Assembly: GCA_014239365.1 (NCBI GenBank)
Contig: JAAZZB010000044.1
Span: forward strand, 62,001-126,000
Origin: Verrucomicrobiia bacterium
GTDB taxonomy: Bacteria > Verrucomicrobiota > Verrucomicrobiia > Limisphaerales > UBA1100
DNA length: 64,000 nucleotides
Direction of reading: 5' to 3'
In this document: positions 10,997 through 59,048 of the stretch, piece after piece
Position numbering within the stretch: the first letter of the stretch is position 1
How the letters are laid out: the number at the start of each line of letters is the position of its first letter
Notes under the pieces: generated by a model
The model's database searches: none
Seen by the model: the letters and a program-made list of their open reading frames with translations, nothing else
What the model was told of the DNA's origin: nothing
Program-made: the position numbers and the translations under genes

Positions 10997-11050
10997 GGTA
11001 GTGTGGTTTTTTCGAAACTGCCTTGGCGCGCTCGGAGAGCACACCCTACC
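10997..11050. repeat. REP/BIME-like element, family B copy 1 (54 bp)
   Basis: It begins GGTAG and ends CTACC. Two inner 9-bp stem positions are each closed by a 3-nt loop (TTC, GGA) and separated by TT. It has the same length and layout as the copy at 58908-58961. Stem 1 is partly decayed (wobbles and one mismatch), and stem 2 pairs GGCGCGCTC with GAGCACACC (two mismatches). It fills the gap between a plus-strand gene and glmM exactly; its last base is also the last base of the glmM TAG stop. Confidence 0.75.
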
Positions 11051-12447
11051 TAGTTTTCCCCGATTTGGCTGGCGATGGATTCGCTGATTTTTTTGCTCCA
11101 TTCGTTGAGCTTTGCTTCATCTTTGCCTTCCAGCAATAAACGGATTTTGGGTTCGGTGCCGGAATAGCGCAATAGCACGCGACCGCCGTGGGTTTGGAGG
11201 TCGGCCTCGGCTTCGGCGAGTAGGGCAGGGACGTCTTCCAATTCCTCGATGGGTTTCTTTTCAGTGACGCGGATGTTGGTGAGTTGTTGGGGGAAACGGC
11301 TCCAGCATGTTGCGAGTTCGCTGAGCGGCTTTTGTTTCGCGGCCATGATGCGGAGGATTTGCAGGGCGGCGACGAGGCCGTCGCCGGTGGTGCCGTGGTC
11401 GCCGAAAATGAGGTGGCCGCTTTGTTCGCCGCCGAAGTTGTGGCCGTGCTTCCGCATTTCATCGATGACATTTTTGTCACCCACATCGGTGCGGATGACG
11501 TTGCCGCCAGCAGCTTCGATGGCGGCATCAAGGCCGGCGTTGCTCATCACGGTGGAGACGAGCGTGTTGTTGGCGAGCGATCCTTCGGCGAGCATTTCGA
11601 GTGCGGCGATGGCCATGATGTCGTCACCATCAATGAGCGTGCCGGTTTCGTCGCAGAGAAGTACTCGGTCGGCGTCGCCATCGTGGGCGATGCCGATGTG
11701 GGCGTTATGTTCCTGAACCCAATGGCACATTTGCTCGGGATGCATTGAGCCGCAACCGGCGTTGATGTTGGTTCCGTTGGGGCGGTTGCCGTAAACAATG
11801 ACGTCCGCGCCGAGTTCGCGCAACACGCAGGGGGTGGCTTGGTAGGCAGCGCCGTGGGCGCAGTCGACGACGATGGTGACGCCTTCGAGCGTTTGGCCGC
11901 GCGGGAAACAGCGTTTGGCAAACTCGACGTAACGGCCGAGTGCGTCGTCGATGCGAATGGCTTTGCCGATTTCGTCGGCGGTGGGGCGCACGTCGTCGAT
12001 GTCGCCACTGAAGACTAAGTTTTCGATTTGGGCTTCGATGGCGTCATCGAGTTTGTAGCCGTTGTGGCTGAAAAATTTCAGGCCGTTGTCGTCGTACGGA
12101 TTATGCGAGGCGGTGATGACGATGCCGGCATCGGCGCGCAGACTGTGAGTGATGCGCGCCACGCCGGGCGTGGGCAACGGGCCAATGAAAAGAACATCAA
12201 CGCCCATCGAGAGGATGCCGCTGGCGAGGGCGTTCTCGAGCATATAACCGGAGAGGCGCGTGTCTTTGCCGATGACAATTTGATGGCGGTGGCGGCTGCG
12301 TGATTCGGGGTTGAGATTTTTGAACACGTGCGCGGCTGCGCGACCGAGCTTGAGGGCAGTCTCGGCGGTGACCGGTTCGATGTTGGCGCGTCCGCGCACG
12401 CCGTCGGTTCCGAAAATTTTATTCGTTTGATTCATCGTCGGGCTCAT
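11050..12447 (-). CDS. glmM: phosphoglucosamine mutase GlmM
   Basis: 465 residues. It interconverts glucosamine-6-phosphate and glucosamine-1-phosphate for UDP-GlcNAc, peptidoglycan and LPS synthesis. Motifs: KIFGTDGVRGRAN at the N-terminus, VITASHNPYDDNGLKFFS (phosphoserine loop, Ser near residue 113), AHDGDADRVLLCDETG (metal loop) and RYSGTEPKIRLLLEG (phosphate-binding C-terminal domain). I chose ATG 12447 because GGAG lies 7 nt upstream and it falls inside the preceding gene's end. An open frame continues to 12606 without homology, and ATG 12435 is an alternative. It is third in the cdaA cluster. Confidence 0.95.
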   Translation of the reverse strand: MSPTMNQTNKIFGTDGVRGRANIEPVTAETALKLGRAAAHVFKNLNPESRSRHRHQIVIGKDTRLSGYMLENALASGILSMGVDVLFIGPLPTPGVARITHSLRADAGIVITASHNPYDDNGLKFFSHNGYKLDDAIEAQIENLVFSGDIDDVRPTADEIGKAIRIDDALGRYVEFAKRCFPRGQTLEGVTIVVDCAHGAAYQATPCVLRELGADVIVYGNRPNGTNINAGCGSMHPEQMCHWVQEHNAHIGIAHDGDADRVLLCDETGTLIDGDDIMAIAALEMLAEGSLANNTLVSTVMSNAGLDAAIEAAGGNVIRTDVGDKNVIDEMRKHGHNFGGEQSGHLIFGDHGTTGDGLVAALQILRIMAAKQKPLSELATCWSRFPQQLTNIRVTEKKPIEELEDVPALLAEAEADLQTHGGRVLLRYSGTEPKIRLLLEGKDEAKLNEWSKKISESIASQIGEN

Positions 12448-18033: not shown

Positions 18034-18083
18034 GGTAGGGACGCGCTGTGCGCGTCCACGGACACGCGCAGCGTGTCCCTACC
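18034..18083. repeat. REP/BIME-like element, family A copy 1 (50 bp)
   Basis: Terminal GGTAG and CTACC can pair. Inside are two perfect 8-bp hairpins with 3-nt loops: GGACGCGC/GCGCGTCC (loop TGT) and GGACACGC/GCGTGTCC (loop GCA), joined by AC. The copy at 44342-44391 has the same length and layout with compensatory stem changes. GTAG next to a hairpin is the hallmark of REP sequences recognised by RAYT (TnpA-REP) enzymes. The two halves point outwards as in a BIME. It lies between two convergent genes. Confidence 0.8.
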
Positions 18084-41939: not shown

Positions 41940-42003
41940 GTGCTGCCGGCATCTTGCCGGCAGAAGTTGCGCCCCCGACCTGCCGGCAAGATGCCGGCAG
42001 CAC
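41940..42003. repeat. Mirror hairpin element, family C copy 1 (64 bp)
   Basis: Perfect 24-bp inverted arms (left arm 41940-41963, right arm 41980-42003) flank a 16-nt centre. Each arm is itself a hairpin CTGCCGGCA/TGCCGGCAG with a 3-nt loop, bounded by GTG or CAC. It sits between two convergent genes, 2 nt from the stop of the minus-strand gene. The second copy is at 47262-47324. Confidence 0.85.
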
Positions 42004-43587: not shown

Positions 43588-44346
43588 ATGAAAACCATCC
43601 TCTTCCTTTGCCTCACGGGATCGCTCGCGATCGCCGCACCCAAACATCCGCTTACCAAGCTGGAATTGCAACAAGCCAAAGAACGCGCCGAGATGTTGGC
43701 CACGCATCACGCCGAGCTACAGCAATTGCTAAAGCGGCAAATCGCCGCCGTCACAAAACTGCGCCAAAAATATTTGAAGGCCGGTGATGCCCAAAGTGCC
43801 GCCGCCGCCGCGAAGGTTTTGGCGGAGCTGCGCCGCAATACGGATTTTCAACCGGCTCAAGCGAAGAAAAAATTATTCGTCGAGGCCATCGTGGATGCCA
43901 AGCCGGCGGCGGTGAAGATGATGCTGCTCAAGCCCACGCGTTTGGTGGAAGCCGAGAGTGTTGAGAAAGCGGAGAATACGGAGAAAGGCCGATGGGCGCG
44001 TGTGCCTAATGCGCTGCTCGGCGCGAGTATTTATGCCACGCCCCGCACGGGCGCTAATGGCATCGCGGATTTTACGGTGACAAAAACCGGCCAGATTTAT
44101 CTCGCGCTGAATTACGATTACCAAGGCAACGGCAGCGGCGGCTGGACGGAGGAGCGCTGGATGGCGGCGGACTTTATGGCCGCCGGTTGGGCGCAAGTGC
44201 GCGACGCGCAAATGGTGGCGTGGAATAATCGAACGTATTCGGTGTTTACCCGCAAAGTGGAGAAGGGGGAAAAATTCAGATTACGCTGCAACAAATACGA
44301 GCCGCCTTTTGTGATTCTTCTCGATGGCGGCAAAGCGGCAAGGTAG
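43588..44346 (+). CDS. hypothetical secreted protein; stop codon lies in a REP-like element
   Basis: 252 residues from ATG 43588 (the frame opens at 43567). Signal peptide KTILFLCLTGSLAIAAP, an extended coiled coil ~25-95 (KLELQQAKERAEMLATHHAE) and a beta-rich end ~125-250 with IYLALNYDYQGNGSGGW and RKVEKGEKFRLRCNKYEPPFVILL, perhaps a carbohydrate- or partner-binding fold. Not recognised. Its TAG stop (44344-44346) is the TAG of the GGTAG terminus of the family A element, so insertion of the element may have set the present C-terminus. Confidence 0.75.
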   Translation: MKTILFLCLTGSLAIAAPKHPLTKLELQQAKERAEMLATHHAELQQLLKRQIAAVTKLRQKYLKAGDAQSAAAAAKVLAELRRNTDFQPAQAKKKLFVEAIVDAKPAAVKMMLLKPTRLVEAESVEKAENTEKGRWARVPNALLGASIYATPRTGANGIADFTVTKTGQIYLALNYDYQGNGSGGWTEERWMAADFMAAGWAQVRDAQMVAWNNRTYSVFTRKVEKGEKFRLRCNKYEPPFVILLDGGKAAR

Positions 44347-44391
44347 GGACATGCTGCGCATGTCCATGGACGCGCGCAGCGCGTCCCTACC
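44342..44391. repeat. REP/BIME-like element, family A copy 2 (50 bp)
   Basis: The same 50-bp plan as 18034-18083: GGTAG, 8-bp hairpin with loop TGC (GGACATGC/GCATGTCC), AT, 8-bp hairpin with loop GCA (GGACGCGC/GCGCGTCC), CTACC. Both stems are perfect although two stem bases differ from copy 1 in each hairpin, so the changes are compensatory. The left end supplies the stop codon of the plus-strand gene, and the right end is 5 bp from the stop of the minus-strand gene. Confidence 0.85.
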
Positions 44392-45962: not shown

Positions 45963-47345
45963 TTACTTGCGAACGCTCGTCCCGTGGCGGGTGGTCAACT
46001 CATATTGGACTGTCCGTCGTTCGTTCGGCTTCAAAGCTAACACAAATTTTATCTTTTTGGCATCCACTTTTTCAAACTTTTCTTCCGTGGCTAAATCCCA
46101 ATCGCCACTAAAATTGCGGCGGATATCGACTGTCACCGGAATGCTCTTGGAATTTTGCAGCTCGATTTCCCAAGTCGCCTTCGTTGTCCAGCCGGTGACG
46201 TTGCCGTTCTTGTCAAAGCGGATGTCTTCCTTTTTCCAGTCCATCAACTTCGGCTCGATGCGAACTTCGGCGTCATTGCCCAGTTGCATTTCCACTTCTT
46301 CATCGACGGGAATGTACTTCACCGCCGTGCGACCGACGAAGTTGTAAAGGTTATCCTTCGTCACCGATCGAAACGCCATCACCGTGCCATCGGGCAAAGG
46401 CTCGGTGCCGAGCTTGCTGTCTTTGTCGTTTTTGAATTTATAAAACCGAATCACCGCCGCGCCGTAGCGTTCCTTTTCGTATTTGTAATAACTGGTGATC
46501 GGCACCTCGGCGGCTTTGAATGAGGGCAGGCGTTTGCTCCAGCCATTGGCAATGGTGTCGCGGCCTTCGACGGTGTAGAGAAAATATTCGCCCACGGCTT
46601 CCTTCACCACTTCCTTGGCTTTTTGGCTGGCTTTGCCATCCATTTCTTTAAAGAATTTCTGTCGGGACAAGCGATCTCTTTCTTCACCGGGTTTATCCGC
46701 CGGAATGTTCAAATTTAATTTTCCCGAACTCGGCCGCGACAAATTCACAATGCTCTCCACCAACCGAACCACCCCGACCATCAACCGAATTTGCGCATCC
46801 GGATAATCTTCGCCACTGCGATTTGTGACGCGGACATTTCCAGCGAATGTCATTTGATTTTCGTTCGCGTTGGCTTCGCAAACATAATCCGCCGCCCACG
46901 CAATGCCGCTGGTGAAATACCGAATCTCCACCTTCACTTCGCCGGCGACTTCGCTATTGATGTTCCACTCTAAAGTATTGGTGACACGCGGCGGGAAGCG
47001 CACATCGAGCACTTCAATTTGATCGGCCTTTTGCAGTGGCCGAAACTCCACACTCGTGGGGTCAATGAGTGTGTTCGCCCACGAAAACTCTAAACGGTTC
47101 GAGCCTTTCTTGAAAGTTAACGTGCGTGTTTCTTTGACCAACGTGAGGTCCACGCTGTTATAGATCGTCAACTGCACTGAGTCGCGGCCCGGAAGGCTGG
47201 TGACGTTGATGCGGGCTTGGGCGGTGAAGGCGATGAGGAAAATGCCGAGGAGGGCGCTTATGTGCTGCCGGCATCTTGCCGGCAGGAGTTGCGTGCGGAT
47301 CTGCCGGCAAGATGCCGGCAGCACATTAAAGCTACTTCGTTGCAT
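45963..47345 (-). CDS. DUF4139 domain secreted protein with repeat-inserted signal peptide
   Basis: 460 residues from ATG 47345, which overlaps the previous stop by 14 nt. Residues 8-28 (VLPASCRQIRTQ plus LLPARCRQH) are exactly the translation of the family C element at 47262-47324. Without them the N-terminus would read MQRSSFN joined to ISALLGIFLIAFTAQA, a normal signal peptide. The mature part is DUF4139-like: VQLTIYNSVDLTLVKETRTL, EFRPLQKADQIEVLDVRFPP, NTLEWNINSEVAGEVKVEIRYF and the GNVTGWTTKATWEIELQNSK beta-sandwich end. It is closely related to its upstream neighbour. The family is secreted and of unknown activity. Confidence 0.85.
   Translation of the reverse strand: MQRSSFNVLPASCRQIRTQLLPARCRQHISALLGIFLIAFTAQARINVTSLPGRDSVQLTIYNSVDLTLVKETRTLTFKKGSNRLEFSWANTLIDPTSVEFRPLQKADQIEVLDVRFPPRVTNTLEWNINSEVAGEVKVEIRYFTSGIAWAADYVCEANANENQMTFAGNVRVTNRSGEDYPDAQIRLMVGVVRLVESIVNLSRPSSGKLNLNIPADKPGEERDRLSRQKFFKEMDGKASQKAKEVVKEAVGEYFLYTVEGRDTIANGWSKRLPSFKAAEVPITSYYKYEKERYGAAVIRFYKFKNDKDSKLGTEPLPDGTVMAFRSVTKDNLYNFVGRTAVKYIPVDEEVEMQLGNDAEVRIEPKLMDWKKEDIRFDKNGNVTGWTTKATWEIELQNSKSIPVTVDIRRNFSGDWDLATEEKFEKVDAKKIKFVLALKPNERRTVQYELTTRHGTSVRK
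47262..47324. repeat. Mirror hairpin element, family C copy 2 (63 bp) inside a coding region
   Basis: Arms of 24 bp (47262-47285 and 47301-47324) are identical to the copy at 41940-42003; only the centre differs (15 nt instead of 16). At 63 bp it equals 21 codons, so it keeps the DUF4139 gene in frame. It lies between codon 7 and the hydrophobic core of that gene's signal peptide. Confidence 0.88.
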
Positions 47346-48660
47346 TAGTTCCTAGGCGGGTGGTGAGGGTGTAGTTGAGGGTTCGCTTTTCGCCGGGGTT
47401 GAGTTGGAGGACGAACTTGATTTTTTTGGCGTCGATCTTTTCGAACTTGTCTTCAGTGGCTACTTCCCAATCGCCACCGAAATTGCGGCGGATGTCGAGG
47501 GTGACGGGGATGGATTTGGAGTTTTGCAGCTCAATTTTCCAAGTGGCTTTGGTGGTCCAACCGTTGACGTTGCCGTTTTTGTCGAAACGGATGGCGTCTT
47601 TTTGCCAGTTCATTAACTTCGGCGCGATGCGGACTTCGGCGTCGTTGCCCAGTTGCATTTCTACTTCTTCATCGATGGGGATGTACTTTACCGCTGTGCG
47701 GCCGACGAAGTTGTAGAGGTTATCTTGGGTGACCGTTCGGAAGGCCATCACGGCGCCGTCAGGGAGGGGCTCTTTGCCGAGTTTGCTTTTTTCGTCGTTC
47801 TTGAATTTATAGAACCGCATCACCGCTGCGCCGTAGCGTTCTTTTTCGTATTTGTAATAACTGACGATTGGCACCTCGGCGGTGTTGAATGAAGGGAGCC
47901 GCTTGCTCCAGCCATTGGCAATCGTGTCGCGTCCGCCAACGGTGTAGAGAAAATATTCGCCAAGGGCTTCTTTGGCGACGCCGCCGTTGCGTTTGCGTTC
48001 GTCTTCGTTGCGGTCGCTAAGTTTTTCAGTTCGTCCGAACAGTGATTTATAGGCGTAATGATTTTTGGCCGCGTCGCGTCTGGGTTGGTTGGCGCCGCCT
48101 TGTTGGGCGAGATTGATGATGCTCTCGACGAGCCGAATGACGCCGACGACCAATCGGATTTGAGCCTTCGGATAATCTTCGCCGGAGTTGTTGGTGATGA
48201 TGACGTTGCCGGCGAAGCGCATTTGGTTTTCGTTGGCGTTGGCTTCGCAAACGTAATCGGCGGCCCACGTGATGCCGCTGGTGAAGTAGCGAATCTCAAC
48301 TTCCACTTCGCCGGCAATTTCGCTGCGGATGTTCCACTCAAGCGTGTTCGTGACACGCGGCGGGAAACGAACGTCGAGGATGTCAATTTGATCGGCCTTT
48401 TGCAGTGGGCGAAACTCGACGCTCGTGGGATCGATCAATGTTCCGGCCCACGAAAACTCCAGCCGATTGGTGCCTTTCTTGAAGGTGAGCGTGCGTGTTT
48501 CTTTGACGAGCGTGAGGTCGGCGCTGTTATAGATAGTGAGCTGAACCGAGTCGCGCCCCGGAAGGCTGGTCACGTTGATGCGGGCGGAAACCACGGTAGC
48601 CGCAAGCAATCCTAAATAAATCAATCCACGCATTCCGAGTTGGACGGGGTTTTTTGTCAC
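47332..48660 (-). CDS. DUF4139 domain secreted protein
   Basis: 442 residues from GTG 48660, one base after the macroglobulin stop. ATG 48633 (signal RGLIYLGLLAATVVSA) is a good alternative start. The mature sequence starts ARINVTSLPGRDSVQLTIYN and is nearly identical to the downstream paralogue over the first ~130 residues and over the C-terminal half. The middle differs (QQGGANQPRRDAAKNHYAYK here). DUF4139 proteins are secreted beta-rich proteins, some once called mucoidy-inhibitor-like. It probably works with the macroglobulin-like protein; that is inference from operon position. Confidence 0.85.
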   Translation of the reverse strand: MTKNPVQLGMRGLIYLGLLAATVVSARINVTSLPGRDSVQLTIYNSADLTLVKETRTLTFKKGTNRLEFSWAGTLIDPTSVEFRPLQKADQIDILDVRFPPRVTNTLEWNIRSEIAGEVEVEIRYFTSGITWAADYVCEANANENQMRFAGNVIITNNSGEDYPKAQIRLVVGVIRLVESIINLAQQGGANQPRRDAAKNHYAYKSLFGRTEKLSDRNEDERKRNGGVAKEALGEYFLYTVGGRDTIANGWSKRLPSFNTAEVPIVSYYKYEKERYGAAVMRFYKFKNDEKSKLGKEPLPDGAVMAFRTVTQDNLYNFVGRTAVKYIPIDEEVEMQLGNDAEVRIAPKLMNWQKDAIRFDKNGNVNGWTTKATWKIELQNSKSIPVTLDIRRNFGGDWEVATEDKFEKIDAKKIKFVLQLNPGEKRTLNYTLTTRLGTNATK

Positions 48661-58907: not shown

Positions 58908-58961
58908 GGTAGGGCGGTTTCTCCGAAACCGCCTTGGCGCGCTCGGAGAGCACGCCCTACC
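58908..58961. repeat. REP/BIME-like element, family B copy 2 (54 bp)
   Basis: GGTAG, perfect 9-bp hairpin GGCGGTTTC/GAAACCGCC with loop TCC, TT, hairpin GGCGCGCTC/GAGCACGCC (one mismatch) with loop GGA, CTACC. This is the better-preserved partner of 10997-11050. It lies between the convergent vapC-like and aldolase genes. Confidence 0.85.
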
Positions 58962-59048
58962 TTGGGCCCGGCATTAGTTCAATATGGATGAATTGGATAC
59001 ACTGGATTTTTATCCTGAATATCCTGCCCATCTGTGTCCAGAATTGGT

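Follow-up and report, generated by a model that had tools for sequence, protein, structure and literature searches.

A non-autonomous, palindromic mobile element of the REPIN type, built from two inverted REP hairpins, lies in frame within the signal peptide of a DUF4139 gene in a Verrucomicrobiia genome. The site is best explained (probability about 0.87) by entry of the element into the 5' end of the downstream DUF4139 gene in frame, where it was kept as not fatally harmful. The gene is located in a 64,000-nucleotide stretch of contig JAAZZB010000044.1 (positions 62,001 to 126,000), which is called the window here. In this one genome, at least five independent in-frame insertions range from a signal peptide to the sole isoleucyl-tRNA synthetase, with uninterrupted orthologues as controls. 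In-frame intragenic REPs are already documented in Rickettsia, Opitutus, and others, and the phenomenon is known. New here are the family, whose ends depart from the GTAG and CGTC tags, the site in a signal peptide, and the clean empty sites, which are needed in close relatives for testing the consequences of mobile DNA turning into part of a protein. The element is clearly a fresh example of a known, little-studied class of protein-tagging selfish DNA.

The palindromic element and its family

The element occupies positions 47262-47324 on the reverse strand (codons 8-28 of the DUF4139 gene) and is composed of a left arm (47262-47285), a 15-nt spacer (47286-47300), and a right arm (47301-47324). 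On the forward strand it reads GTGCTGCCGGCATCTTGCCGGCAG, 15 nt, and CTGCCGGCAAGATGCCGGCAGCAC. The full perfect inverted repeat covers 47260-47326 with 26-nt arms, taking in the AT/AT beside the GTG...CAC termini. With arms of 24-26 nt that are 100% complementary, a DNA fold z of -10.5, and an RNA fold z of -9.9 (region -68.8 kcal/mol), the palindrome is far outside chance expectation in arm complementarity, copy number, and fold z. The position, 63-bp length, frame, and residues given by the first-pass annotation were all exact, as was its length of 64 bp for the other copy of the family in the window (41940-42003), whose flanking predicted ORFs are 3-6 bp away.

The genome containing the window (3.3 Mb, 89 contigs, 94% complete, contamination estimate 1.15%) is probably a metagenome assembly and harbours about 40 such places. 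In the stretches around the matches, 39 full copies were recognised, always with the left arm followed by the right arm. Each consists of a pair of inverted 24-bp REP arms separated by a spacer of 12-30 nt and measures 60-78 bp overall; across the copies the arms are near-invariant and the spacers variable. The commonly seen spacer lengths are 16 nt (17 copies), 15 nt (seven), 26 nt (five), and 27 nt (five). The centre of the window element, one base shorter than that of the 64-bp copy, does keep the reading frame as had been proposed. However, there is no sign that the 15-nt spacer arose here as a frame rescue, because it is a recurrent length class (7/39), with some of these seven copies intergenic. 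Read outwards, the ends follow CAC-(A/G)-T-T-A with declining conservation, and an outer end NGTG, with N mostly T or C, stands straight before the stem in all copies.

The exact REPIN pattern occurs 20 times in this genome, as against zero for a control pattern; one congener has it once, and the other 291 genomes searched of the order lack it. In the GTDB contig collection, where records of the same genome were possibly excluded, it was found in two records, both of them Verrucomicrobiota MAGs. Diverged members of the family are present in 6/6 other genomes of the genus. By a simple codon-usage ORF scan, the majority of the 39 copies are intergenic, many of them abutting stop codons, often one base off. 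Some copies extend C-termini, namely those of HemA, LipA, and an RsmD-like gene with its convergent neighbour; the HemA domains were confirmed by search, and the names LipA and RsmD-like come from sequence reading alone. The REPIN-encoded tail VLPASCRENPTIPSADNMPTAQN and its variants form the HemA C-terminus in several species of the genus (L047, L152, L167, L176, L191), and this REP-derived tail is old and fixed, being common to several congeners. Additionally, one protein in five congeners (L150, L165, L179, L184, L192) ends in ...KLITE-FSAGKMPA(A/T)(H/R), a C-terminus derived from a single REP. ORF overlaps upstream of dapA-, fabG-, Gfo/Idh-like, and other genes were rejected as coding insertions, a normal start downstream of the element being plausible.

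Insertions inside conserved genes

The DUF4139 gene carrying the insert (gene 2; 45963-47345, reverse strand; ATG at 47345-47343) encodes 460 aa and matches Pfam DUF4139 with E=5e-13. It overlaps by 14 bp with an upstream tandem paralogue (gene 1; 47332-48660, reverse strand), whose true start is likely near 48633, MRGLIYLGLLAATVVSA. The 63-bp insert encodes VLPASCRQIRTQLLPARCRQH, and the hydrophobic core with the predicted c-region, ISALLGIFLIAFTAQA, follows in codons 29-44 (47214-47261, reverse strand). The element landed past the n-region and ahead of the hydrophobic core, so that neither the start codon nor the core and cleavage region was disrupted. A comparison with relatives had been suggested, and an empty site was indeed found in a congener (G005, contig C20), where the tandem, the ATG, and the 14-bp gene overlap are all conserved but the insert is missing. 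This site reads MQRSSF-ILVLLLAFSAQARINV, also given as MQRSSF-ILVLLLAFSAQA. The exact insertion point in DUF4139 and a target duplication are not readable because the core beside the element has diverged from that of G005.

The proposed lengthening of the n-region is likewise borne out by the sequences, with 28 residues now ahead of the hydrophobic core. The core begins at residue 29, versus residue 4-5 in related DUF4139 proteins, and the n-region charge is +5 versus +1 or +2. Counted to the A of the conserved ARIN, there are 44 residues in the window protein and 17-19 in the related DUF4139 proteins compared. In the gene 2 reading, the only in-frame starts before residue 57 are ATG1 and GTG8, and none lies between the element and the hydrophobic core. 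Initiation downstream of the element would therefore cost the signal peptide, since GTG8 is followed by no further start until codon 57. Translation may be affected, because the mRNA can form a long, very stable hairpin from about 20 nt past the ATG. Judging from sequence, the protein with its insert would be made and exported, and a 28-residue, net +5 n-region should be accepted by the Sec pathway. Here nature provides a direct test of how much extra length and charge an n-region tolerates before export is lost.

The insertion into a signal peptide, as first described, is real, but signal peptides are not special targets in this genome. Five independent copies fall within conserved coding sequences or close to their N-terminus (DUF4139, AcnA, IleS, MqnC, and MqnA); the AcnA, IleS, and MqnC copies are unambiguously internal and the MqnA copy is at the N-terminus. 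In these last four genes, the insert is absent from every relative where the site is alignable. The IleS insert SAAGILPAEDSPESAGKMPAAQ, with AAGILPAEDSPESAGK as a predicted insert-derived peptide, stands between ...MQRKELTRP and WRADIYLEGSDQHRGW, and the AcnA insert RAAGILPAESETTAGKMPAAL between ...LAQGILSK and YFPDTLVGTDSHTTM. Similarly, RAAGILPADSEAHSGHERSAGKMPAAH in MqnC separates ...RRQQEES from CAFTAFIAWTF, and RAAGILPAESSTSENPTPAGKMPAAH in MqnA separates MSETRAN from KRIGSVPYLN. The MqnC site is occupied by an unrelated loop in three relatives that belong to other genera of the family. Compared with the empty sites, the filled junctions have some bases extra or missing, and no clear target duplication was seen in this comparison.

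Apart from the insert, the host genes look intact. IleS, AcnA, and MqnC score 850, 1008, and 436 against curated cut-offs of 621, 945, and 428, respectively, and MqnA matches its own Pfam family. IleS is the sole isoleucyl-tRNA synthetase in the genome and shares 89-93% identity with its congeners. An AlphaFold model of IleS with the insert, built from 11 sequences, has a mean pLDDT of 51.5 and is not usable. Within the genus, IleS (L062, which is G000:C27 of this genome; L110, L111, L113, L117-L119) has KIAKS instead of KMSKS and, after it, an unusual stretch, a feature common to the congeners.

All six frames of the REPIN arms are free of stop codons, so survival of a gene after an internal insertion probably hinges mainly on a net length that is a multiple of three. 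The length bias supports this, with spacers divisible by three in 5/5 independent coding copies versus 9/33 others (Fisher p = 0.004, resting on five cases and on the author's own coding or non-coding call for each copy). The four cytoplasmic enzymes use the frame AAGILPA...AGKMPAA and the signal peptide uses VLPASCRQ...LPARCRQH, a difference that is only suggestive with so few cases. It has been considered whether the lineage was shaped for coding compatibility, with arms open in six frames, frame-keeping spacers (12, 15, 27, and 30 nt), and genes colonised as a translated peptide module; this appears unlikely. If true, such a lineage would provide raw material for protein evolution, including in essential enzymes and an export signal.

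Origin of the insertion and alternative explanations

A second DUF4139 tandem on contig C24 of the same genome carries this insertion too, differing at a single base (62/63 identical, same spacer). Segment 47171-47970 of the window, which contains the 3' half of gene 1, the junction, the REPIN, and the 5' end of gene 2, is 92-99% identical to C24 by sliding identity, its limits being approximate. Identity between the window contig (C17) and C24 is at this level over about 800 bp round the junction, versus roughly 50-90% in most other parts, and a second short patch reaches 96%. Because identity is high round the junction but falls off in several other parts, recombination between two DUF4139 loci very probably produced the window copy. 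The simplest reading of these sequences would be one REPIN insertion at a C24-type tandem, after which the junction was copied into the window locus. The insertion had been called recent, which holds for the element family; the window copy itself very probably came by recombination together with about 800 bp of flank. In G006, only one DUF4139 gene is present at the locus linked to a large alpha-2-macroglobulin-like gene; it starts like window gene 1 and ends like window gene 2, and the DUF4139 start in G004 is of the same type. The window DUF4139 genes (45963-48660) make up a recombinant tandem, the corresponding G006 locus being single-gene.

As has been proposed for REPINs, the element would move in single-stranded, folded form, and a Y1-type (HUH) transposase presumably acts on it in trans. 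Most of its landing sites are intergenic, and many are immediately next to a stop codon. At the DUF4139 locus, the junction carrying the insert would later have been copied into the window by recombination between the two loci, a step that the flanking identity strongly supports. The insert peptide presumably has no function.

The insert may instead be a 5' regulatory or mRNA-stability hairpin, with translation beginning inside or after it, at GTG8 or later. Such a role has been put forward for some N-terminal REPs of other species. The hairpin close behind the ATG is indeed very stable, GTG8 could serve as a start, and Di Nocera et al. (2013, PMC3733652) caution that many N-terminal REPs may fall beyond the real coding region. 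However, ATG1 and the 14-bp overlap are kept in the empty-site relative, any start after GTG8 would delete the signal peptide, and the element lies beyond doubt in the interior of AcnA, IleS, and MqnC; this explanation is accordingly regarded as improbable. Co-option of the peptide is more doubtful still. Here, the longer, positive, cysteine-bearing n-region or the hairpin would alter export rate or expression and be under selection, in line with the rise in charge from +1 to +5 and the retention of the insert in both tandem loci with a single nucleotide difference. Sharing via a recombination tract, however, means that this retention was not independent; insertions in unrelated proteins point to neutrality, and the insert is absent from the sole relative where the orthologous junction was seen.

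The identical insertion point in C17 and C24 could also reflect two independent insertions through site-specific targeting of the junction. This is very improbable against the near-identity of the two elements and their shared spacer, the 92-99% flank identity over about 800 bp, and the single-gene state of the alpha-2-macroglobulin-linked locus in G006. Least probable of all is an assembly or binning artefact, which could be imagined because repeats complicate assembly, the sequence is split into 89 contigs, and strain mixture is conceivable in a probable metagenome assembly. Against it, the contamination estimate is low, the same junction occurs in both loci, the window copy is inside a 335-kb contig and the junction was assembled separately on C24. 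Furthermore, the copies differ in spacers and flanks, and relatives hold diverged family members. In-frame entry of a REPIN, tolerated rather than selected, is thus the preferred explanation.

Relation to known systems and other repeats of the genome

The definition of REPINs, as extragenic doublets, comes from Pseudomonas (Bertels and Rainey 2011, PMC3116915). Like these, the present family has an inverted REP pair forming a single hairpin, a spacer less conserved than the arms, high-copy dispersal over many contigs, and a predominantly extragenic location. Unlike the known ones, which are extragenic and RAYT-tied, several copies here are intragenic and in frame, and no RAYT flanked by the same REP was found in this genome of about 94% completeness. 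None of its four Y1_Tnp genes has this REP within 1.5 kb, and the Y1_Tnp genes in two relatives have other flanking sequences. The missing RAYT lowers the case for full REPIN-RAYT membership and current mobility; the structural likeness is unaffected. A transposase locus can be lost, as PMC3733652 points out.

The same article describes intragenic REPs encoding 20-30 aa, among them cases from tRNA synthetases and from the verrucomicrobium Opitutus terrae. The REPs treated there, of the two large GTAG and CGTC super-families, resemble the present family in REP dimers coding for 20-30 aa within ORFs, tRNA synthetases included, in many copies near gene 3' ends, in termini supplying stop codons, and in head-head dimers. 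They differ in their ends, which are NGTG here and correspond neither to an unpaired GTAG, GYRG, GTMG, or GTGG terminus nor to a CGTC terminus. No signal-peptide case was found in portions of its main text, and searches of the literature for such a case or for the present family returned nothing relevant. Rickettsia palindromic elements (RPEs) are in-frame palindromic repeats in unrelated protein genes and are regarded as selfish (Ogata et al. 2000, 2002; reviewed in PMC10969869). By their description there, they are alike in inserting in frame into many unrelated proteins, as seen here in DUF4139, AcnA, IleS, MqnC, and MqnA with empty sites in relatives. In contrast, RPEs are about 150 bp, compared with 60-78 bp and a typical REPIN architecture here.

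Other palindromes are also present. At least some Y1_Tnp genes of this genome carry their own palindromes, one of which is a clear GTAG-type REP pair. The REP at window position 18098 matches the GTAGCCCGGGCC palindromes flanking a Y1 transposase gene on contig C58 (L034, G000:C58:5292-8573), which is likely a RAYT with its own REP family. A second palindromic family of 50 nt, GGTAGGGACGCGC...GTCCCTACC with GTAG-like ends, occurs at 18034-18083 and 44342-44391 and looks like another REPIN family. A third dispersed family is represented by a 55-nt repeat, GGTAG(T/G)G(T/C)GGTTT...CGAAAC, at 10997-11051 and 58908-58962, with 89% identity between the two copies.
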